NCBI GenBank assembly: GCA_026989505.1
Contig: JALSJF010000068.1
Coordinates: 1-64,000, forward strand
Direction of reading: 5' to 3'
Source of the DNA: Cyclobacteriaceae bacterium
GTDB lineage: Bacteria; Bacteroidota; Bacteroidia; Cytophagales; Cyclobacteriaceae
Length of the DNA: 64,000 bases
The notes beneath the pieces were generated by a model that saw only the letters and a list, made by a program, of their open reading frames with translations, did not search any database and was not told the DNA's origin. Of this stretch, positions 579 to 29,445 are shown piece by piece. The first letter of the stretch is position 1, and every line of letters begins with the position of its first letter. Both the position numbers and the translations under genes were made by a program.

Positions 579-664
579 CTCGGTAATGCAAAGGTTTACC
601 AACCCTCTACTTCCGGGCCTAAATCCTTCTACCCGGGGTTTGTCCCGGCAATCAGTTGTTCTTT

Positions 665-703
665 AGCCCGAAAAATTCATATGAATTTTTCGCCCACAGG
701 GCT
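665..703 (+). repeat. Perfect 20-bp palindrome with outer stem
   Basis: AAAAATTCAT at 671-680 is followed directly by its reverse complement at 681-690. An outer AGCCC (665-669) can pair with GGGCT (699-703), lengthening the hairpin. It sits at the left edge of the 691-844 element; the corresponding position left of the copy at 19481 is degenerate, so this hairpin may or may not belong to the element. Confidence 0.6.
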
Positions 704-844
704 GATAACCCCGAGCCCTCGGGGCATCAGGTCCTTAGACTCCGCTGAACCGGAGTTTAAAGGGCCTGATGTAATTAACTGACAAACAATCGTTTGTCGG
801 TTAATTTACCTCATTATTCACGATTTTCATGAATAATCCGGGTT
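691..844 (+). repeat. Multi-hairpin dispersed element, copy 1
   Basis: The 154-bp unit runs from CGCCCACAGGGC to CCGGGTT and aligns along its whole length with 19481-19632. It contains four inverted repeats: CCCCGAG/CTCGGGG (709-715 with 718-724); a long arm CATCAGG/CCTGATG (725-731 with 765-771) enclosing CTCCG/CGGAG (740-744 with 751-755) around a CTGAAC loop; a 15-bp stem at 773-787 with 792-806 around an AATC loop, with one G-T pair; and ATTATTCA/TGAATAAT (813-820 with 830-837). No protein-coding frame is apparent. It may be a structured RNA, a small non-autonomous mobile element or a REP-like sequence; the sequence alone does not decide. Confidence 0.75.
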
Positions 845-852
845 AGTAGCCC

Positions 853-18800: not shown

Positions 18801-19091
18801 GCCGGGGGCAAGCGTAACACCTTGCAACTGTCGGTTGATATCTTTAATGTAGGTAACCTGTTGAATAAAAAATGGGGCAAGATGTACCGCAGGGAAGATA
18901 CCCGCTTTAACTACGCCCTGTACAGGTTTGAGGGTTGGGTACAGGATAACAATGGCGATGATACCCGTGAGCCAATCTACTCGTTCCCCGGTTACATCGA
19001 CAACAAGCCTTACTACAATAACCTGGATGATGCAGGTTTGCGCAGCTCAAGGTGGCAGATGCAAATTGGTGTCCGGTATATCTTCAACTAA
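15873..19091 (+). CDS. Oar-like TonB-dependent outer-membrane receptor
   Basis: A 1072-residue protein with a signal peptide (MKRSLLILCFMAVAVIGFGQ), a CarboxypepD-regulatory-like beta-sandwich (about 25-105, INGRITDSSGQPLPGATV), the segment ELQEIVIT leading into a plug domain (about 115-245, with YIDGAVNNDVFG), and a large beta-barrel ending in GVRYIFN, whose C-terminal aromatic residue is typical of outer-membrane proteins. This layout matches Oar proteins. No susD-like gene follows, so it is not a standard glycan-uptake pair. Two TonB genes lie convergently downstream. The ligand is unknown; Oar proteins have been linked to secretion or export of proteins in some bacteria. Confidence 0.9.
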   Translation: MKRSLLILCFMAVAVIGFGQGLTTASINGRITDSSGQPLPGATVIAVHVPTGSQYGNVTDADGYFRIPNMNVGGPYTITVSFVGFQDYKEEGVYLSLGQTFKLNKSLSESATELQEIVITSGGIFDGNRTGAETTLNTEDINLTPTVGRAIGDFARFEPMARIQEGNDGFEISVAGMNNRLNAIYIDGAVNNDVFGLAGSGTNGGQTGVSPYPIDAIAQFNISVAPFDIRQSGFAGASINAVTRSGTNEVSGSAYYYFRNQNMAGRTPAEDFNGVTREKLSDYSATTFGVRVGGPIVKDKVFFFINAEMQRDETPQPFDFNNYTGDATQADVNNLISKINSYGYDPGKYLDNTAFLNSDKIIAKLDFNLGKQHKLSVRHSFVKAENLEARRSGITSLQFINGSEYFNSTTNSSAIELKSNFDKASNHFTFGMTLVRDDRDPMGDPFPSVTIDDGEGRIVFGAEPFSTANLLNQDIITFTNNFEMYLGKHTLLIGGNAEFYKTKNLFIPFNYGSYQFNSVNDYLTDQSAWVYLRGYSLLANIVGDESPSGIEFKSQLLGLYVQDSWNVTDNFKLTLGLRADMQLFEDTPENQRFNDNTIPLIEAAGYDLKGARTGSFIKPQVLLAPRVGFNWDVKGNQETQLRGGIGLFTSRIPLVWPGGAYNNNGLNQGFEFRGGWFTSTPFVADVNNQYPGAIDPSNPPESGNIDLFASDFKIPQVLKANLAVDQKLPGGIIATFDAIYTKFINNIYYENVNLQPSWGNLDQPSDQRPLFNRRDLINSDYGRISLASNTNKGYAYNFSLLLRKAFDNGFNTSLSYSYGDSYSIYDGTSSQNSSQWRYNQTVSDRNVVTQVRRSAFAAGHRVLGTISYRKEYANHLATQIGLVYEGRSGDAYSFLIGDGDDMINADSRTPELAYVPVDQNDITMASQEDWDRLNAFISQDKYLSTVRGQYVDRNQNRTPWENIFDLKFLQDFYITTAGGKRNTLQLSVDIFNVGNLLNKKWGKMYRREDTRFNYALYRFEGWVQDNNGDDTREPIYSFPGYIDNKPYYNNLDDAGLRSSRWQMQIGVRYIFN

Positions 19092-19180: not shown

Positions 19181-19292
19181 CCTCGGAACATCGGGGTTAA
19201 CCTCCGCTGAACCTCCGCTGAACCTCCGCTGAACCGGAGTTTAAGGACCTGATGTAATTAGCTGACAAGCAGTTGTCTGGCGGTTGATTTAC
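19181..19292 (+). repeat. Multi-hairpin dispersed element, decayed copy 3
   Basis: It aligns with the middle of copies 1 and 2 from the first stem to the AATTA...GACAA hairpin, but its left stem is damaged and the right-hand hairpin and CCGGGTT end are missing. An 11-bp unit, CCTCCGCTGAA, occurs three times in tandem (19201-19233) where the other copies have it once. The shared GGACCTGATGTAATTA (19244-19260 region) shows closer relation to copy 2. Confidence 0.65.
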
Positions 19293-19480
19293 AGCTATTT
19301 AAACTATAACCAAAAAAGGGAATTTAGTTGCAGAACAAATGCCATCTGCTTTGCAATGAAAAGTAGATAGTCCAGTTGTGGGTATTGGTCAATTTAGTGT
19401 AAGGGTAAACTGATTAGTAAACAGGAATACTTCTACTGGAGATTGGAATTAGGCCTGCTAAAACTACATGAAGAATTATT

Positions 19481-19632
19481 CGCCCACAGGGCCGATGACC
19501 CCGAGGTCTCGGGGCATCAGGGGTTAACCTCCGCTGAACCGGAGTCTAAGGACCTGATGTAATTAAATGATAAACATATGTTTATCATTTAATTTACGTC
19601 ATTATTCACGAAAGTTGTGAATAAACCGGGTT
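19481..19632 (+). repeat. Multi-hairpin dispersed element, copy 2
   Basis: The unit runs from CGCCCACAGGGC to CCGGGTT and matches copy 1 at about four of five positions by eye. Stem 1 is CCCCGAG/CTCGGGG around GT. Stem 2 is CATCAGG/CCTGATG enclosing CTCCG/CGGAG with the same CTGAAC loop. Stem 3 is a perfect 34-bp palindrome (19561-19594). Stem 4 is TTATTCAC/GTGAATAA (19602-19609 with 19617-19624). In stem 3, C-G pairs of copy 1 are replaced by A-T and T-A pairs here, so pairing has been kept while sequence changed. Confidence 0.75.
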
Positions 19633-19781
19633 AAAAAACACCTGCCTGCGGGTTGTGTGGTTACCGTTTAGCCGTCTGCCTGTTAGCCCTCTATATACCG
19701 GCAGAGCCACTTGCTGAGGACTGAAAGCGGGGGATGTGCCGGGGAAGGCTTTCTTTGCGGGCGCAATTAAATGGCATAAAA

Positions 19782-22275: not shown

Positions 22276-25200
22276 TTACTGGGCTAAACTAAACCGTACC
22301 TGCACGCCAAAAGCGGTGGTGGTACGCCTGAAGGAGGTGGTAATGCGGGGCTCGTTAATGCTTCTTTCATAATAGGCCTGCAGGGTAAGCCGGTTGTTCA
22401 GGGCATAGCCAATGTTGGGCCGTACCTGGATATTTACGTTACCATTGGTAATGGTATTTACCGATACCTCTTCCCCGTTGGTGTCCACATTAAATTTTCG
22501 CTGGATGGTCTTGGTGTCTTTAATGGTTAGGTCCATCCTGAAATCCAGGTCGTTTTCCAGGGTGGCCGTGCGCCCTTTAATCTTGAAGGGCACTTTTACA
22601 TTTGATTTGGTAAAGCCCAGCGACAGCACCAGGTCTTTGCTGTTTAGTTCGGTTATCTGCACGTTGGCCAGGTTAAGGGCCAGGTTGCGTTCGGTTTTGT
22701 ATTCAATGGAGGCATTCAGGCGGCTGCGGGTGCGCATACTTATCTTAATCAACGGGGCAAACCGTTCGGTAATAATAATTTGCTGCACAACATACTGGGG
22801 TATAAGCTGCCCTTCATCATTTACTTTCGTGGCCGGCCCGGTATTTTCCACATTGTTGTTCAGCAATAGGTCCTCGGGGGTTTGGTAGAGCAGGGAGTTG
22901 GTATAATTACTCACACTGTAGGTTGACGAATAGGCATGGGTGATGGTAAAGGAAGAAAACTGTTTGCGCATTGACGGCAGTTTGCCCAGGCCGGTATAAT
23001 CTAACCGCCAGTTGGGCAAAGGGGTAGCGGGGAAGGTACGCAAACTCACCTCATTGGCCGATTTACCCGAGTAGGCGGCAAGAAAAGCCGGGGTCAGCAC
23101 ATCCTGGCTATTGGGGTCGTAGTTGTTGCCGGTTTGGTCAAACAGCCGTTGCCCGATGATGGCCCGGTTACGCACAAACGCTTCAAATAAAGGTGAAATG
23201 TCGTCCTGGTTATCGTTTACGAAGGCGGTTTTTATGGCCAGGAAGGTTATGCTGTAAGCCCCGGAGCGGGTTGGGTTAAAAGATTGGTAAGCGCCTAATG
23301 AATCGGTACGGAAGATCTCCTGATACTGGGAAGATTTCTTTTTCTTGATATCAACCTGTAGTTTAAAGCTGCTGAAAGGTTCAATGATACCCTTAATGTT
23401 TAAATCGATGGTTTGTATCTGCCGGAAAGGGTCGGAAAGAATGGGGTTATCAACCAGCCAGCCGTTATTGGCTGCATCATAGCGGATGCCGGGGTTCTGG
23501 TCGCCCAGAATAAACCCTGCCCCGGGCGATGACCAGGTGGTATCCATACCCAGCAGGTAGGGGCTTTTCCTGAACCCGGGCAAACTGGTACCATCTTTGA
23601 TATCGTAGGTAATGTTTACAGACCGTAACATCATCAACGACCGCAGTAACCCTTTAACGAGTTTATTGTCTTTTCTCACCACCGTATCCCGGGTGGCCGT
23701 GGGCCTGCGGCTGGCGCGCCTCCGTGGCGGGGAATTGATTTTTTTCAGGTAAGGCACCTTATTGTAGAGTTTAACCAGATCGAACTTTCCTGAAGCGGTA
23801 ATGGTGCGGTTATTTTCAATGCGGTTGCCCAGGGTATCAATCTGGTCCAGGGCTGCGGAGGTCCAGAGATAACCTACACTATAACGCACATCGGCATTGG
23901 TCCAGTCGGTAAGCGGTATTTTATCCAGCGGCAGGCGGAAGTTGGCCCCCAGGGTCTGGTTGAAGGACTTCATCCGCCCGAATTGTTTCAGGTTGGTCAG
24001 GATAATGTCCCTGCCTTCGGTGGTGATCTCACCGTCCGGCTCATCTACCAGGGCATTGGCCCGGGCACTGTAATCCAACGAAATAGCCTTGGTAATATTC
24101 CATTTAAGGCCGTAAATACGGTTAAAAACAAAAGATTTTTCATAATTGGCCGCTACACCTTCACTGGTTAAATCTTTGTTCCGGTAAAGGGTTTTTATAT
24201 ACGTTCTTTTCAACTCGCCCCTGATGGTAACATTAGATAAAACAGGGTTAAAATTAATATCTTTAATAAGTTTCAGCCAGTCTGATTTAAAGGCATCCAT
24301 ATCCTTGAAAGGTTGCAGGGAAACCTCCTGCGGGCTGAAGGTATAGGCAAGGGAGCCGGTGTAATTGCGGTTTTGATAGGTGGCAATATTATAATTACTG
24401 CGGGTTTTATCGCTATAGGCAAACGATACGGCAAAGTTCTCGATGTTGTAAAACCTTTTGCTCTTATCGGGGTTGGTGTGCTCTTTGCGCAAGTTGGTGA
24501 GGTTGATACTGCGTTGCTCGGTGCGGTCGATAACCGCATTTTTGAAATCGTTGCGCTCTTGGGTATCTTCTATGGCCTCCAGGTTGCTTTCCAGGGGGAT
24601 GTCAGAGTCTAACGGGTTATATTCGGGGGTTATGGTTTTTCTTTCATAGCTGGCAAATACCGGGATTTTTATCCCTGATTTCGAAGGCAGGAATTTGTCC
24701 AGGTTTACATTGCCCGAAACATCGTACTCAAAGGTGGTTTCCTGGGTGCGTTCGGCAATTTTTGATTGTACATTACCAAAGCCATAGGCGGTGTAGCGTG
24801 TAGAGGCCGAAATATTGGCAAAATCGGCCAGTCTGGCGTTGAGGCTGGCATTGCCGGCCCAGCCGGCCTGGCGGTCAAAATCGGTAACCCTGAGTTCATT
24901 GGCCCAGATGCATACATCGTAAGCGCTTTCATCGGCACTTTCAGGGTTACGGATACCAATCATTAAACTGGTTATTACACTCATTTTAGGGTTACCAACC
25001 ACGGTAATTTTATATTGGTTATAGGTGGTGGTAAAGGGCAGGTCCAGGGAAACCCCGGCTGCATTACGCATCGATTTAGCTTTATACAACTCGCCAAAAG
25101 GCATGTCTATTTCATTTTCTGTTGGCCATATTTCCCCGGGGCTGCTGGAGTTAAAGGGGGTAATGGTCAGCGGCACTTCTATTTCATAATAATTGTCGAA

Positions 25201-28200
25201 GCCGGAACTCAGGCGCAGGAAGGCCCGCAGGTCACCACTTTGGGCATTGGGGCTCTGGGCATGGATAAACATCTTCACCCGGCCGTAATTAACCAGGTTA
25301 AGGTCAATGTTTTTAAAGGCGGCCCGGGCGTTTTTGTCTTGCAGGTCTTCCACACAAAGTTGCATGGATTGCTCGTTTAAGCGCCTTTCAATAACCGAGG
25401 TGTTATCCCGGTCGCGGATAATGCCGGGGGGTAAAACATACGGGATGCCCGACTCGCCACCCTGGCCGTTTTCTTCTATATTCACTACCGAAATGGTGAA
25501 TTTGCTGTCTTCCCTCTCCGGGATCTCGTCAAACCGTTTATTCTCCAGGTTGTCCTCAAAGCGCCTCCACTGTGAGCCTACCAGGCGTAAATTGGCGGTC
25601 CTTAACACTACCGGTTGCGACCAGTTGGTAAAATACATCCGTACATAACGGATGGACTTAAAACCGCTGATGTTACCCACAATGGCATCGGGTTGCCTTA
25701 CGGGGATACGAAACAGGTACCAGTTAACCTCATCTCCGTTTTTAACATTCGATACCTTATCTACAATGTACCCTTCCCCAACCTTTAGTTGCCCCGGGCG
25801 CAGGTTAACCCGGTATTCGTAATATTCTTCGAGGTCACCCAGGGTGTTGTCAATGTTCAGGTCTTCGTTATCGGGCAGGGTAGAGCCCGAAGGCGAATAG
25901 GGTAAAACATTATTGCTGAGATCGGGGGAGTTCTCTTCAAGGCCGTTGAAGTTTTTATAACGTTCTACAACATTGGCGCCTTTTTGGTCCAGTTCGGGGC
26001 CAAGAAAGTAGTTAAAGTTATCGGCTGAGGGGTCGCTTCTTATCTGGTCCACGGCCCCGGGTGCCAGGTTAGGGGGCAGGTTATTGATAAAATCCGTGAA
26101 CTTAGTTAGCTCTTCATCGTCAGCAAGGCCGTCCAGGCCGATATCCTGGTTTACCCGTGCCCCCGGTTCATTGTTAAAGGCGTTGTTAATGTACTGCTGG
26201 TTGGTAACAAAGCCCCAGTTGTTTTCGGTAACATTATCGGGGGTTTTTACCCCATCGGCCGGCAGGCCGTTTTCAAAGGCCATGCGCCTGTCGCGCATCA
26301 CGTCTTCCGAGACGCTGCCCAGGTTGAATATCAGTTCGCCTCCGGTGAAATTGGGTTGCGGGTTAGGGCTGCCATCGTCAACCACCCCATACGGGCTGTT
26401 AATGAAGGGGTCCATCAGCCAGAACTCAAGGTACTCAATATTTGATTTGTCAAAATCCACTTCCGAACGAATGGCTGTGGTTATCCCGGCCCAATTGCTT
26501 TGGGGGTCTTTTAACTTGCCCTGGGAGGTAAGGTCGGGGTTGTAGTTGTAGGGGCCTCTTTCGTCAGGGAAATAAGCCAGGTCGAGAATCGGATAGTTGG
26601 TGTTTATTACTTCAAGTTGTTTGCCGGGGAATATTTCCTGAGGCTCAATAGGCCGCACGTAATGGTTTTTCAAGGCTTCTTCTGAAATGGGTGGTTTTGC
26701 CGGCCCCCCGGTACGGTAGAACACATTATCAATAATGTACCAGGCCAGCTTAGCCCTTTTATACGAAAACCTGAGGTCATCATTGGCCCCCTCGCTCAGG
26801 TCAAAACGGTTGTCGGGGGTGGTGGGGGTGGCAGCTACCTTCCACATGATCCAGTTACTCAGGCTGAAAGGGGTAACGGTGTTTTCAAAATCATCGATAT
26901 AGGAAGTGCCCTCACCATTAACAATATTGGAGGTGCCCGGTATTAGCTGGGCAAACTCCCCGCTGAAAGTGATTTTTGAGGGTTCCTTGGTCTGGATCAA
27001 CGGCAGGGCATCAATCATTTTGGTCAGGAACCGGGATTCGGTACTATAGTTCATATCGAACCCGTATTTGGTGTTTTTGGCCGGCTCATTGCCAATGGAA
27101 GGCCGGGTGTACAGGGGCCGCTCATAATGATAGAGTACGGTGGCGCCAAGGTTAAAATTATCGTTGATCCGGTATTCGGCCCGTGCCCCTACCAGGGTGC
27201 GCGACTGGAAATTAAATAAATCGGCTTTTTCGTAGGTTACTTTAATGGTTTTGCCGGAGTTGATAATGCTTTCGTTAAGGATCTGTACCTTACCAAAGTT
27301 ATAGTCAACCGTATAGTCAACCCCTTCGGTGAGGGTTATGCCCCCGGCTGTGACCACTACCGAGCCTTCGGCAATCTTGATACCGTCTAATAAGATCTCG
27401 CTTGACGACCCGGACTTTAACGAGCCGGAGAGGAAATATTTATCTTTGGTCACATCCAGGACGGCATCGGCTTTGGTAGTGCCGTACAGGGTATCGTAAA
27501 CGTAGCGTTGGATAAGTTCTACCTCCCCGGGGTCAAACAAGCTTTTTAAATGACTACCGAAAGGTTCGAGCTTAGGGAAAAATATTACTCCTGTGGTGGT
27601 GTTAATGGTTACCCCGTCAATAAAGTCGAAATTCCCGTCTTTCGGAGGGTCTCCGTTAACGTTCAACTGGTCAAGCCCCAATAGTTCAATCAGGGGGATG
27701 TCTTTGGTGTTCACGCCTTCGTTCAAATTAGGGTTGTCAAGGCCGGTGCGGTCGTCACGGTAGGTAATGCGTAACTGAAACCCTTCCTGGTTTACCTGGC
27801 TGGCATTCAGGTTATAGGCATTTTTCATCATCAGGTCCCAGGTAGGTATGCGTTTATTGTTTTGGTCGCGGGTGGCAATTTTACTCGGCCGCAGCATCTT
27901 CATAAAGATCACTTCGTCCTCGGGGCGGTTGGCATAGTCTTCGGTAAGTTCACCTACTTTATAGGTAATACCGTTGTAGCTGTATTCGTAGGCTACGGCC
28001 AGCACCTCATCGCTGCTCAGGGGCCGGTTAAGGGTGATATAGCCGAGTTGTTGATGCACGGTAAATTCCCGGTCTTCCAGCTTGCGGGCCCCGTTGATTT
28101 TGTCATAGTGGGTAGCCTTTACCATATTGAACGGTGATGTGTCAAGGATACCATCAATATTGTCAACATTACGGTCCAGGTTAACAATGGCATTAAACAA

Positions 28201-29445
28201 TTGGTTGGCATCGTTGCGGTTGGGCACATCGCCCAGGCCGGGGGCAACCACTCCGTCAAACGCCTGATAGATAACCTTGCCTTCGGCCAGGTCCATAAAA
28301 GCTACGATATTACGTTGCGAACGGGTGTCGTTATTGCGGTTGATAATATACACCTCAACCCGGGATATTTGCACCCCGGAGGTAATGCGCGGGATGTTGG
28401 CCAGCCATTTCTCATAATTGTCGCGAAAGAAATGGCCGAGGAAAAAGTGCCGGTTTTCATCGTAATTTGAGGCTTTTATTTCAAACTCACGGCCTTGCAC
28501 GCCTCCGCCCTCAACCGTTACCTGGTCGCTTTTACCCCGCTGGGTAGAGGCCACCCCGGTAATGAACAATTTGCCAAACTGCAACTGGGTTTTCACACCA
28601 AAGAGGTTTTGGGCCCCGGTCATCAGGCTATTGCTTACCGGCATGGTAACATTGCCCACCTCAAGTTTTTTGATGATATCCTCTTCAAAGCCGGTGAATT
28701 CTACCTTCAGGTTGTTTTGAAAGTCGAAGGAGTTATTATTATCGAAGTTAGCCGTAACTTTTAATTTTTCACCGATTTTGCCTACGACATTCATGCTTAT
28801 TTGCTGGTCGAACTCAAAGCCGCCATTGCGCTGCTGGGTAATGGGGATGGCGGGATTGTTGATGCGCTGAAACCGGGCCCCGAAATCCAGGTTTACCATA
28901 CCCCGCGGGTTGATTTCCACATAGCTGCCGCCAAAAATACGGTCGAATACCGGGCTGATGTAAACTTTTGGTATCAGGCGTTTGCTGGTCAGGGCGGTTT
29001 CGCCATCTACGGCCACTGCCCGTTCCTGCCAGTAGGCTTTCAGCAGGTCCTTGGTTTGGTAGGCCGAGTACTCGGCAAACGAAATAGTTGTTGGCGGCCG
29101 GTAATCGAAGGTGCCGATTCTTTCAGTGATAGAGAAATTCAGGCCGGTATCCAGCGATACAATGCGTTCGAGGTTGCTGGGGTCACCAAATAACAGGGGC
29201 GAGTACCCGATGCGGTTAGAAAAAGGATCGCCATAGCGGTCGCGGGGCTCAAAATCGGGCCGGGTTGAGGGTGTGTAAGGCAGGTTTCGCAGGCTGTCGC
29301 TGAGGCGGGTGGCCGGCCGAGGCGGGAGGGTGTCCTGGGCTACGGTGCTTTGCTGGCCATACGCAACCCTGCTGCCCAGGATAACCAACAGGGTTATTAT
29401 CCTGACGACAGGTGGTTTCCGGTTATGCAGCGATGTAATTGCCAA
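22276..29445 (-). CDS. sprA: SprA, type IX secretion outer-membrane translocon
   Basis: At 2389 residues this is among the largest genes in a Bacteroidota genome; SprA of Flavobacterium johnsoniae is of almost the same size. SprA (Sov in Porphyromonas) is the very large beta-barrel through which folded T9SS cargo leaves the periplasm, and it is needed for gliding in gliding species. The N-terminus has a signal-peptide-like segment (about 12-30), then YSPLLFGDPSN and FPGKQLEV-type SprA N-terminal blocks; the C-terminus ends TTTAFGVQVRFSLAQ, typical of a barrel strand. It lies 15 bp after ruvA, forming a unit with maeB and ruvA. Two proteins with T9SS sorting domains (42473, 47036) are likely clients. 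Confidence 0.95.
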   Translation of the reverse strand: MAITSLHNRKPPVVRIITLLVILGSRVAYGQQSTVAQDTLPPRPATRLSDSLRNLPYTPSTRPDFEPRDRYGDPFSNRIGYSPLLFGDPSNLERIVSLDTGLNFSITERIGTFDYRPPTTISFAEYSAYQTKDLLKAYWQERAVAVDGETALTSKRLIPKVYISPVFDRIFGGSYVEINPRGMVNLDFGARFQRINNPAIPITQQRNGGFEFDQQISMNVVGKIGEKLKVTANFDNNNSFDFQNNLKVEFTGFEEDIIKKLEVGNVTMPVSNSLMTGAQNLFGVKTQLQFGKLFITGVASTQRGKSDQVTVEGGGVQGREFEIKASNYDENRHFFLGHFFRDNYEKWLANIPRITSGVQISRVEVYIINRNNDTRSQRNIVAFMDLAEGKVIYQAFDGVVAPGLGDVPNRNDANQLFNAIVNLDRNVDNIDGILDTSPFNMVKATHYDKINGARKLEDREFTVHQQLGYITLNRPLSSDEVLAVAYEYSYNGITYKVGELTEDYANRPEDEVIFMKMLRPSKIATRDQNNKRIPTWDLMMKNAYNLNASQVNQEGFQLRITYRDDRTGLDNPNLNEGVNTKDIPLIELLGLDQLNVNGDPPKDGNFDFIDGVTINTTTGVIFFPKLEPFGSHLKSLFDPGEVELIQRYVYDTLYGTTKADAVLDVTKDKYFLSGSLKSGSSSEILLDGIKIAEGSVVVTAGGITLTEGVDYTVDYNFGKVQILNESIINSGKTIKVTYEKADLFNFQSRTLVGARAEYRINDNFNLGATVLYHYERPLYTRPSIGNEPAKNTKYGFDMNYSTESRFLTKMIDALPLIQTKEPSKITFSGEFAQLIPGTSNIVNGEGTSYIDDFENTVTPFSLSNWIMWKVAATPTTPDNRFDLSEGANDDLRFSYKRAKLAWYIIDNVFYRTGGPAKPPISEEALKNHYVRPIEPQEIFPGKQLEVINTNYPILDLAYFPDERGPYNYNPDLTSQGKLKDPQSNWAGITTAIRSEVDFDKSNIEYLEFWLMDPFINSPYGVVDDGSPNPQPNFTGGELIFNLGSVSEDVMRDRRMAFENGLPADGVKTPDNVTENNWGFVTNQQYINNAFNNEPGARVNQDIGLDGLADDEELTKFTDFINNLPPNLAPGAVDQIRSDPSADNFNYFLGPELDQKGANVVERYKNFNGLEENSPDLSNNVLPYSPSGSTLPDNEDLNIDNTLGDLEEYYEYRVNLRPGQLKVGEGYIVDKVSNVKNGDEVNWYLFRIPVRQPDAIVGNISGFKSIRYVRMYFTNWSQPVVLRTANLRLVGSQWRRFEDNLENKRFDEIPEREDSKFTISVVNIEENGQGGESGIPYVLPPGIIRDRDNTSVIERRLNEQSMQLCVEDLQDKNARAAFKNIDLNLVNYGRVKMFIHAQSPNAQSGDLRAFLRLSSGFDNYYEIEVPLTITPFNSSSPGEIWPTENEIDMPFGELYKAKSMRNAAGVSLDLPFTTTYNQYKITVVGNPKMSVITSLMIGIRNPESADESAYDVCIWANELRVTDFDRQAGWAGNASLNARLADFANISASTRYTAYGFGNVQSKIAERTQETTFEYDVSGNVNLDKFLPSKSGIKIPVFASYERKTITPEYNPLDSDIPLESNLEAIEDTQERNDFKNAVIDRTEQRSINLTNLRKEHTNPDKSKRFYNIENFAVSFAYSDKTRSNYNIATYQNRNYTGSLAYTFSPQEVSLQPFKDMDAFKSDWLKLIKDINFNPVLSNVTIRGELKRTYIKTLYRNKDLTSEGVAANYEKSFVFNRIYGLKWNITKAISLDYSARANALVDEPDGEITTEGRDIILTNLKQFGRMKSFNQTLGANFRLPLDKIPLTDWTNADVRYSVGYLWTSAALDQIDTLGNRIENNRTITASGKFDLVKLYNKVPYLKKINSPPRRRASRRPTATRDTVVRKDNKLVKGLLRSLMMLRSVNITYDIKDGTSLPGFRKSPYLLGMDTTWSSPGAGFILGDQNPGIRYDAANNGWLVDNPILSDPFRQIQTIDLNIKGIIEPFSSFKLQVDIKKKKSSQYQEIFRTDSLGAYQSFNPTRSGAYSITFLAIKTAFVNDNQDDISPLFEAFVRNRAIIGQRLFDQTGNNYDPNSQDVLTPAFLAAYSGKSANEVSLRTFPATPLPNWRLDYTGLGKLPSMRKQFSSFTITHAYSSTYSVSNYTNSLLYQTPEDLLLNNNVENTGPATKVNDEGQLIPQYVVQQIIITERFAPLIKISMRTRSRLNASIEYKTERNLALNLANVQITELNSKDLVLSLGFTKSNVKVPFKIKGRTATLENDLDFRMDLTIKDTKTIQRKFNVDTNGEEVSVNTITNGNVNIQVRPNIGYALNNRLTLQAYYERSINEPRITTSFRRTTTAFGVQVRFSLAQ

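Follow-up and report, generated by a model that had tools for sequence, protein, structure and literature searches.

The window analysed here, a stretch of 64,000 nt from a member of the Cyclobacteriaceae (host assembly of 3.51 Mb in 273 contigs), carries two complete copies of a short hairpin-rich element, together with the partial and decayed remains of a third (Table 1). A cysteine-desulfurase-like gene follows downstream of copy 1, copy 2 is situated between the convergent genes for a TonB-linked outer-membrane protein and a TonB_C protein, and the third copy follows a gene that ends at position 19091. The ORF list shows no open reading frame of 100 aa or more inside either of the two complete copies. 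The partial third copy is unusual in its hairpin D, one arm of which (19199-19235) consists of an 11-bp unit (AACCTCCGCTG) repeated 3.4 times, which resembles slippage copying of the arm. Two further features of the window should be mentioned. A second repeat of 87 bp, with 80% likeness between its copies at 454-540 and 836-922, brackets copy 1, and its 20-bp core found no match in the other fetched loci. On the minus strand, positions 22276-29445 hold a gene for an SprA-type gliding/secretion protein of 2,389 aa, which is typical of the Bacteroidota.

The original prediction had placed the two copies at 691-844 and 19481-19632 and described them as alignable end to end and folding into the same stems. 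Pairwise alignment and folding agreed with this description, both copies giving the same hairpins, with z scores relative to mononucleotide shuffles of about -10.7 and -6.6; the boundaries proved too short, since hairpin A at the left end had been missed. The paired changes reported for the third stem (hairpin E) were also found: in alignment A2 a C-G pair of copy 1 appears as A-T in copy 2 (columns 13/34) and another as T-A (columns 17/30). The CTGAAC loop is indeed unchanged between the copies of the window, but within the family as a whole it is also found as its reverse complement, as CTGAGC, as CTGAAT and in other forms.

Table 1. Element copies, hairpins and flanking target sequences in the window
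Feature	Position	Strand	Basis
Left target-site duplication TTAG, copy 1	663..666	.	Direct sequence; left/right agreement across copies
Copy 1, complete element of 176 bp, CCCGAAAAATTC...GAATAATCCGGG	667..842	+	
Hairpin A, left-end, omitted from the original prediction	669..692	+	
Hairpin B, GCCC-aca-GGGC	691..702	+	
Short hairpin C' (CCCCGAGCCCTCGGGG), takes the position that the ~100-bp stem C has in longer copies	708..724	+	
Hairpin D, CTGAAC loop	725..772	+	
Hairpin E, predicted earlier as stem 3, with paired changes	767..814	+	
Hairpin F, right-end	814..837	+	
Right target-site duplication TTAG, copy 1	843..846	.	
Partial third copy: hairpin D with 11-bp unit x3.4, hairpin E, decayed hairpin F	19199..19320 (approximate)	+	
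Left flank TTAG, copy 2	19449..19452	.	
Copy 2, complete element, mutated left end	19453..19630	+	
Right flank TTAA, copy 2; one base off the left TTAG	19631..19634	.	

Copy number, modular anatomy and insertion sites

A genome-wide search for further copies had been proposed as a check on the element, and it identified more than 150 of them in the host genome, a count that refers to pattern searches and about 150 non-redundant fetched loci rather than to the whole assembly. A DNA search of the host genome returned 84 matching pieces in 40 scored places. The left end (CCCGAAAAATTC, one mismatch allowed) gave 222 matches, its reversed control 39; for the right end of 17 bp, searched with up to two mismatches, the numbers were 155 and none. 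Such counts greatly exceed chance. Altogether the element makes up of the order of 1% of the host genome, and its closest full-length copies are at most 98.7% identical. The ends are inverted, CCCG(A/G)AAAATTC...GAATAATCCGGG, and the outermost CCC pairs with GGG so that the entire element folds as a multi-branched loop.

Individual elements range from 34 bp with one hairpin to about 260 bp (261) with six. A line-up of the copies separated size classes, counted with the flanking TTA included, of 34 bp (hairpin A alone, CCCG...CGGG), 41 bp (F alone), about 118 bp (A-B-E-F), 178 bp (A-B-C-F), and 235 and 261 bp (A-B-C-D-E-F, with D short or long). The hairpin modules come and go as wholes, and the copies of the window represent a class of 176-178 bp in which the short stem CCCCGAGCCCTCGGGG substitutes for the long stem C.

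The target duplication is 4 bp long and reads TTAA or TTAG/CTAA. Among 79 long copies of the host genome the 4-bp flanks were identical in 47 (29.3 expected). Identical flanks other than TTAA, counted separately because the palindromic TTAA/TTAA is uninformative, were seen in 14 of these copies against 2.7 expected, inverted ones in none against 2.5 expected, and none of 20,000 shuffles reached the observed values. When other genomes were added, 62 of 99 copies had identical flanks, with 17 identical pairs being other than TTAA. Both TTAG/TTAG and CTAA/CTAA are present. The identical flanks are a target-site duplication, and neither an extension of the inverted repeats nor a motif for single-strand insertion. 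Three copies of 34 bp (L016, L120 and L130) have inverted flanks, namely TTAC...GTAA, CTAC...GTAG and TTAT...ATAA, where the palindrome extends into the target; this may reflect palindrome correction or an end-hairpin intermediate.

Of 112 elements in the host genome only eight lie inside ORFs (the coding density of the window is 93%), and 32 are placed between convergent, 30 between tandem and eight between divergent genes as called by a simple ORF rule, the remainder being at contig edges. Convergent placement thus accounts for 32 of the 70 classified elements, compared with about one fifth of the intergenic bases in the window, and the gene ends facing the element are 3' ends in 111 cases versus 5' ends in 59. 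On 20 of 224 sides (8.9%) an ORF with a length of 100 codons or more terminates precisely in the flanking TAA, against a background of 3.7% of the YTAA/TTAG sites in the same loci. In three loci (L009, L144 and L160) this overlap occurs on both sides; here a convergent gene pair had one common TTAA, and both stops survived the insertion. A search of the congener for an empty insertion site, with the joined flanks of L160 as a query, did not reveal one; the two neighbour genes of L160 are on different contigs there, and the neighbours that were tried were not syntenic.

Distribution of the element and conservation of its fold

An initial DNA search of 28 relatives gave zero matches, and the sequence has therefore diverged while the plan was retained. 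A scan for the element with two mismatches across 397 genomes of the family identified it in ten genomes and in five of 85 genera, the reversed control giving zero throughout; genus g69 showed one poor match only, with the right end absent. Complete two-ended copies are present in the congener as well as in three further genera (g91, g66 and g15). The same architecture is found in at least four genera. An exact pattern scan of named genomes matched Cyclobacteriaceae bacterium S012_113 (the congener, G001), the Bacteroidetes MAGs B22T3L14 and B34T3L8, Marivirga sp. LH_M32 and Bacteroidota CSMAG_1309. The element was not found in viral contigs. Matches in Elusimicrobia, Parvibaculum and others to the palindromic pattern alone were set aside, the rest of the element being missing in those that were read; the Elusimicrobia loci (L172, L173, L214 and others) carry many palindromes of the form CCCGAAAAATTCNNNNGAATTTTTCGGG, which have the appearance of an unrelated repeat or of a convergent end.

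Conservation of pairing was analysed in an alignment of 20 sequences from several genera with a mean column identity of 51%. In this alignment 85.5% of cells are paired in the shared structure, compared with 78.6% when shuffled. Of the 66 base pairs, 26 have changed on both sides, and the covariation score is 0.218 versus 0.116 for shuffled and at most 0.077 for slid alignments; it should be noted that the copies are related and not independent, so that the shuffle controls overstate significance. The 15-bp stem C is paired across genera with compensating changes, and this pairing of the interior is not explained by simple mobility. A covariance model built from hairpins E and F of the host genome, a search that had been suggested together with the prediction, recovered the two complete copies of the window, the partial one, and copies in other genera. 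In the congener the pairing of hairpins E and F is largely gone, and the terminal sequence is retained.

Selection on an RNA should favour G-U over A-C departures from pairing on the transcribed strand, whereas mutation alone should yield them equally. Distinct departures over all stems of the host copies numbered 35 G-U versus 27 A-C. Without hairpin E (stems A-D and F) there were 16 versus 20, and in hairpin E alone 19 versus seven, one of the 19 being a consensus T-G pair. There is no overall strand bias, and a hint of one in hairpin E. Eighteen copies carry the hairpin D loop in forward orientation and four carry its reverse complement, as would be expected from template switching or from inversion within a cruciform. 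We take the pairing to be maintained mainly at the DNA level, because there is no overall G-U bias, the loop occurs both ways round, and the pairing of E and F has largely been lost in the congener. The paired changes had been attributed to selection on structure; the pattern itself is supported, but an overall RNA-level sign is missing from the strand test, and the inverted loops point to a process acting on DNA.

The same data bear on the possibility of a structured RNA, i.e., a regulatory or 3'-end element which was spread by a transposon and whose hairpins are kept for the folding of a transcript. Both the two-sided changes with their covariation score and the tolerance of G-U in hairpin E would suit such an RNA, and so would the excess of 3' gene ends facing the element, but the last would also result if insertions into promoters were selected against. 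The similar numbers of G-U and A-C departures in the other stems, the inverted loops of hairpin D and the congener copies that kept their ends and largely lost E and F all argue against it. A search against Rfam 15 with the window and five relatives produced no match at either gathering or loose thresholds, the best chance hit (E 0.94) being far below the cut-off. Taken together we regard a structured RNA as improbable.

An IS1380-family partner in related genomes

The combination of CCCG ends with a 4-bp duplication suggested the IS1380 family, and the transposase domain PF13701 was searched for in the genomes bearing the element and in further genomes of their genera. In genome G192 an IS1380 element is present in full (L249; 1,608 bp), which runs from CCCGAAAAATTCATTG to GTGAATAATGCGGG with TTAA on either side. 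Its outermost 12-14 bp are the same as those of the mini-element at both ends (CCCGAAAAATTCAT and GTGAATAATGCGGG), and its transposase of 432 aa matches PF13701 at 5.7e-110 and the NCBIfam model for IS1380 family transposases with 299 bits, the cut-off being 180. The same genome also carries two mini-elements (L218 and L228). A second IS1380 element, of which genome G091 holds two copies (L252 and L265), begins with the mini-element's left end, CCCGAAAAATTCAT, and it is exactly at this base that the sequences of the two copies diverge; its protein is 54% identical to that of L249, and this genome carries mini-elements too. The flanks of these two copies are TTCA and TTTC, not TTAA, and in one of them the transposase frame is broken and the right end was not found. 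More distant autonomous IS1380 relatives were seen at two other loci (L248 and L250), and the IS1380 transposases of the relatives exceed the curated NCBIfam cut-off.

The likeness to the IS1380 elements thus extends to both ends and the TTAA duplication for L249 and to the left end for the second element. The common sequence is confined to the last 12-16 bp or so, and while the IS1380 elements are about 1,600 bp long and encode a transposase, the mini-elements are gene-less, measure 34-261 bp and have an unrelated interior of hairpins. In the host assembly, which is 96% complete and whose contigs often end within repeats, no IS1380 transposase was detected either with PF13701 or with the partner's own profile, and a search for DDE_Tnp_1 (PF01609) in the host genome was also negative. 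With the profile of the partner transposase (E 1e-60) no related transposase was found in the order (391 genomes searched). A search of 151 non-redundant host loci for a longer form of the element with a transposase gave none; the one candidate of 717 bp that was read turned out to be an ordinary gene between element ends.

Nature of the element and related systems

The element is very probably a MITE, that is, a non-autonomous element moved in trans by a DDE transposase of the IS1380 family. It is short, lacks a transposase gene, is present in many copies, and has ends that match IS1380 and a duplication of fixed length. An autonomous partner in the same genome is found in the relatives G192 and G091 and not in the host; autonomous partners are often lost, and their presence is not a strict requirement for a MITE. 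Judging from the common ends, it is likely that an IS1380 element mobilised the copies in this host. The non-autonomous mobile element with a cruciform, which was among the kinds of element originally proposed, is thereby strongly supported by the number of copies, their inverted ends and target duplications, and an IS1380 partner with the same ends; the accompanying statement that no known family fits remains true of the sequence and does not hold for the kind, which is very probably an IS1380-type MITE. The repeat represents a new family within a type of mobile DNA that is already known, and not a new regulatory RNA.

According to this model the transposase would recognise the ends CCCG(A/G)AAAATTC and GAATAATNCGGG and insert the element into TTAA or TTAG/CTAA, duplicating this 4-bp target. 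As TAA is part of the target, an insertion can coincide with a stop codon, or with the TTAA in which the stops of two convergent genes overlap, and would then leave the proteins unchanged. The row of hairpins A-B-C-D-E-F would lose, shorten or exchange modules as wholes and so give rise to the size classes, and pairing would be upheld by DNA-level processes such as template switching in cruciforms or hairpins, perhaps together with selection by the transposase. A function for the interior hairpins in addition to mobility, with the multi-hairpin fold being retained in several genera through compensatory changes and used as a cruciform or single-stranded substrate of a transposase of IS1380/piggyBac type or as a transcript shielding the element, is rather unlikely.

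Intrinsic, bidirectional transcription terminators kept for that use would also account for strong hairpins and for their enrichment between convergent genes. A terminator-like module had been listed together with structured RNA among the initial proposals, and neither is borne out: besides the Rfam result, the last hairpin is not followed by a run of T on either strand, hairpin F being followed by CCGGGTTA on the plus strand and hairpin A by GGGCTAA on the other. As the copies are insertions with target duplications and with ends common to IS1380, a role as dedicated terminators is highly improbable, and termination could arise as a side effect of insertion. A palindrome of REP/REPIN type, mobilised by a Y1 tyrosine transposase (RAYT), or an element of IS200/IS605 type, would likewise be a high-copy intergenic hairpin, and one Y1_Tnp gene (L171) is present in the genome, but the genuine target duplication largely refutes this alternative, which we give next to no weight: IS200/IS605-type elements need an absence of duplication and a fixed target polarity, a single-strand mechanism would not yield TTAG/TTAG together with CTAA/CTAA, the Y1 gene at C2:34150 has none of the listed element ends nearby, and in place of the one-sided GTAG or CGTC tags that define the REP super-families (PMC3733652) there are CCCG...CGGG ends with duplicated TTAA, TTAG or CTAA.

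Returning to the IS1380-type MITE, comparison with described systems places it as follows. The pneumococcal BOX and the Correia/NEMIS elements of Neisseria are modular or hairpin-rich intergenic mini-elements with more than 100 copies; they differ in their hosts and in their ends, which are not known to be related to those of the present element. Among described elements the nearest in kind is MITEPye1 of Paracoccus yeei, an element of 159 bp with 4-bp repeats and IS1182-type ends (PMC11578231). Both are short, intergenic and without ORFs, fold strongly, and combine inverted ends borrowed from an IS with 4-bp duplications; MITEPye1 differs in belonging to another IS family, and the present element differs in its modular size classes and a multi-hairpin plan found in several genera. 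Within the IS1380 family, IS1247 is listed with a duplication of 5 bp (PMC3281130), compared with 4 bp here. Published trees use the transposases of this family as an outgroup to piggyBac (PMC10813416), and the eukaryotic piggyBac inserts almost only at TTAA by a targeting mode that is structurally understood (PMC7351741); duplication of TTAA is common to both, whereas the present element uses TTAG/CTAA as well. In the open-licence literature we found no published account of the present family, nor of an IS1380 MITE in this phylum.

These results name a likely mover for an apparently undescribed repeat family that occupies about 1% of a bacterial genome, and link this family, whose target is of the TTAA type, to the sister group of piggyBac among prokaryotes. 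With more than 100 copies in one genome and others in further genera, the family also offers a natural data set on the concerted change of palindromes, for which selection on RNA, selection on DNA shape and template switching during replication are the options, and it bears on how covariation within repeats is read as evidence for RNA.
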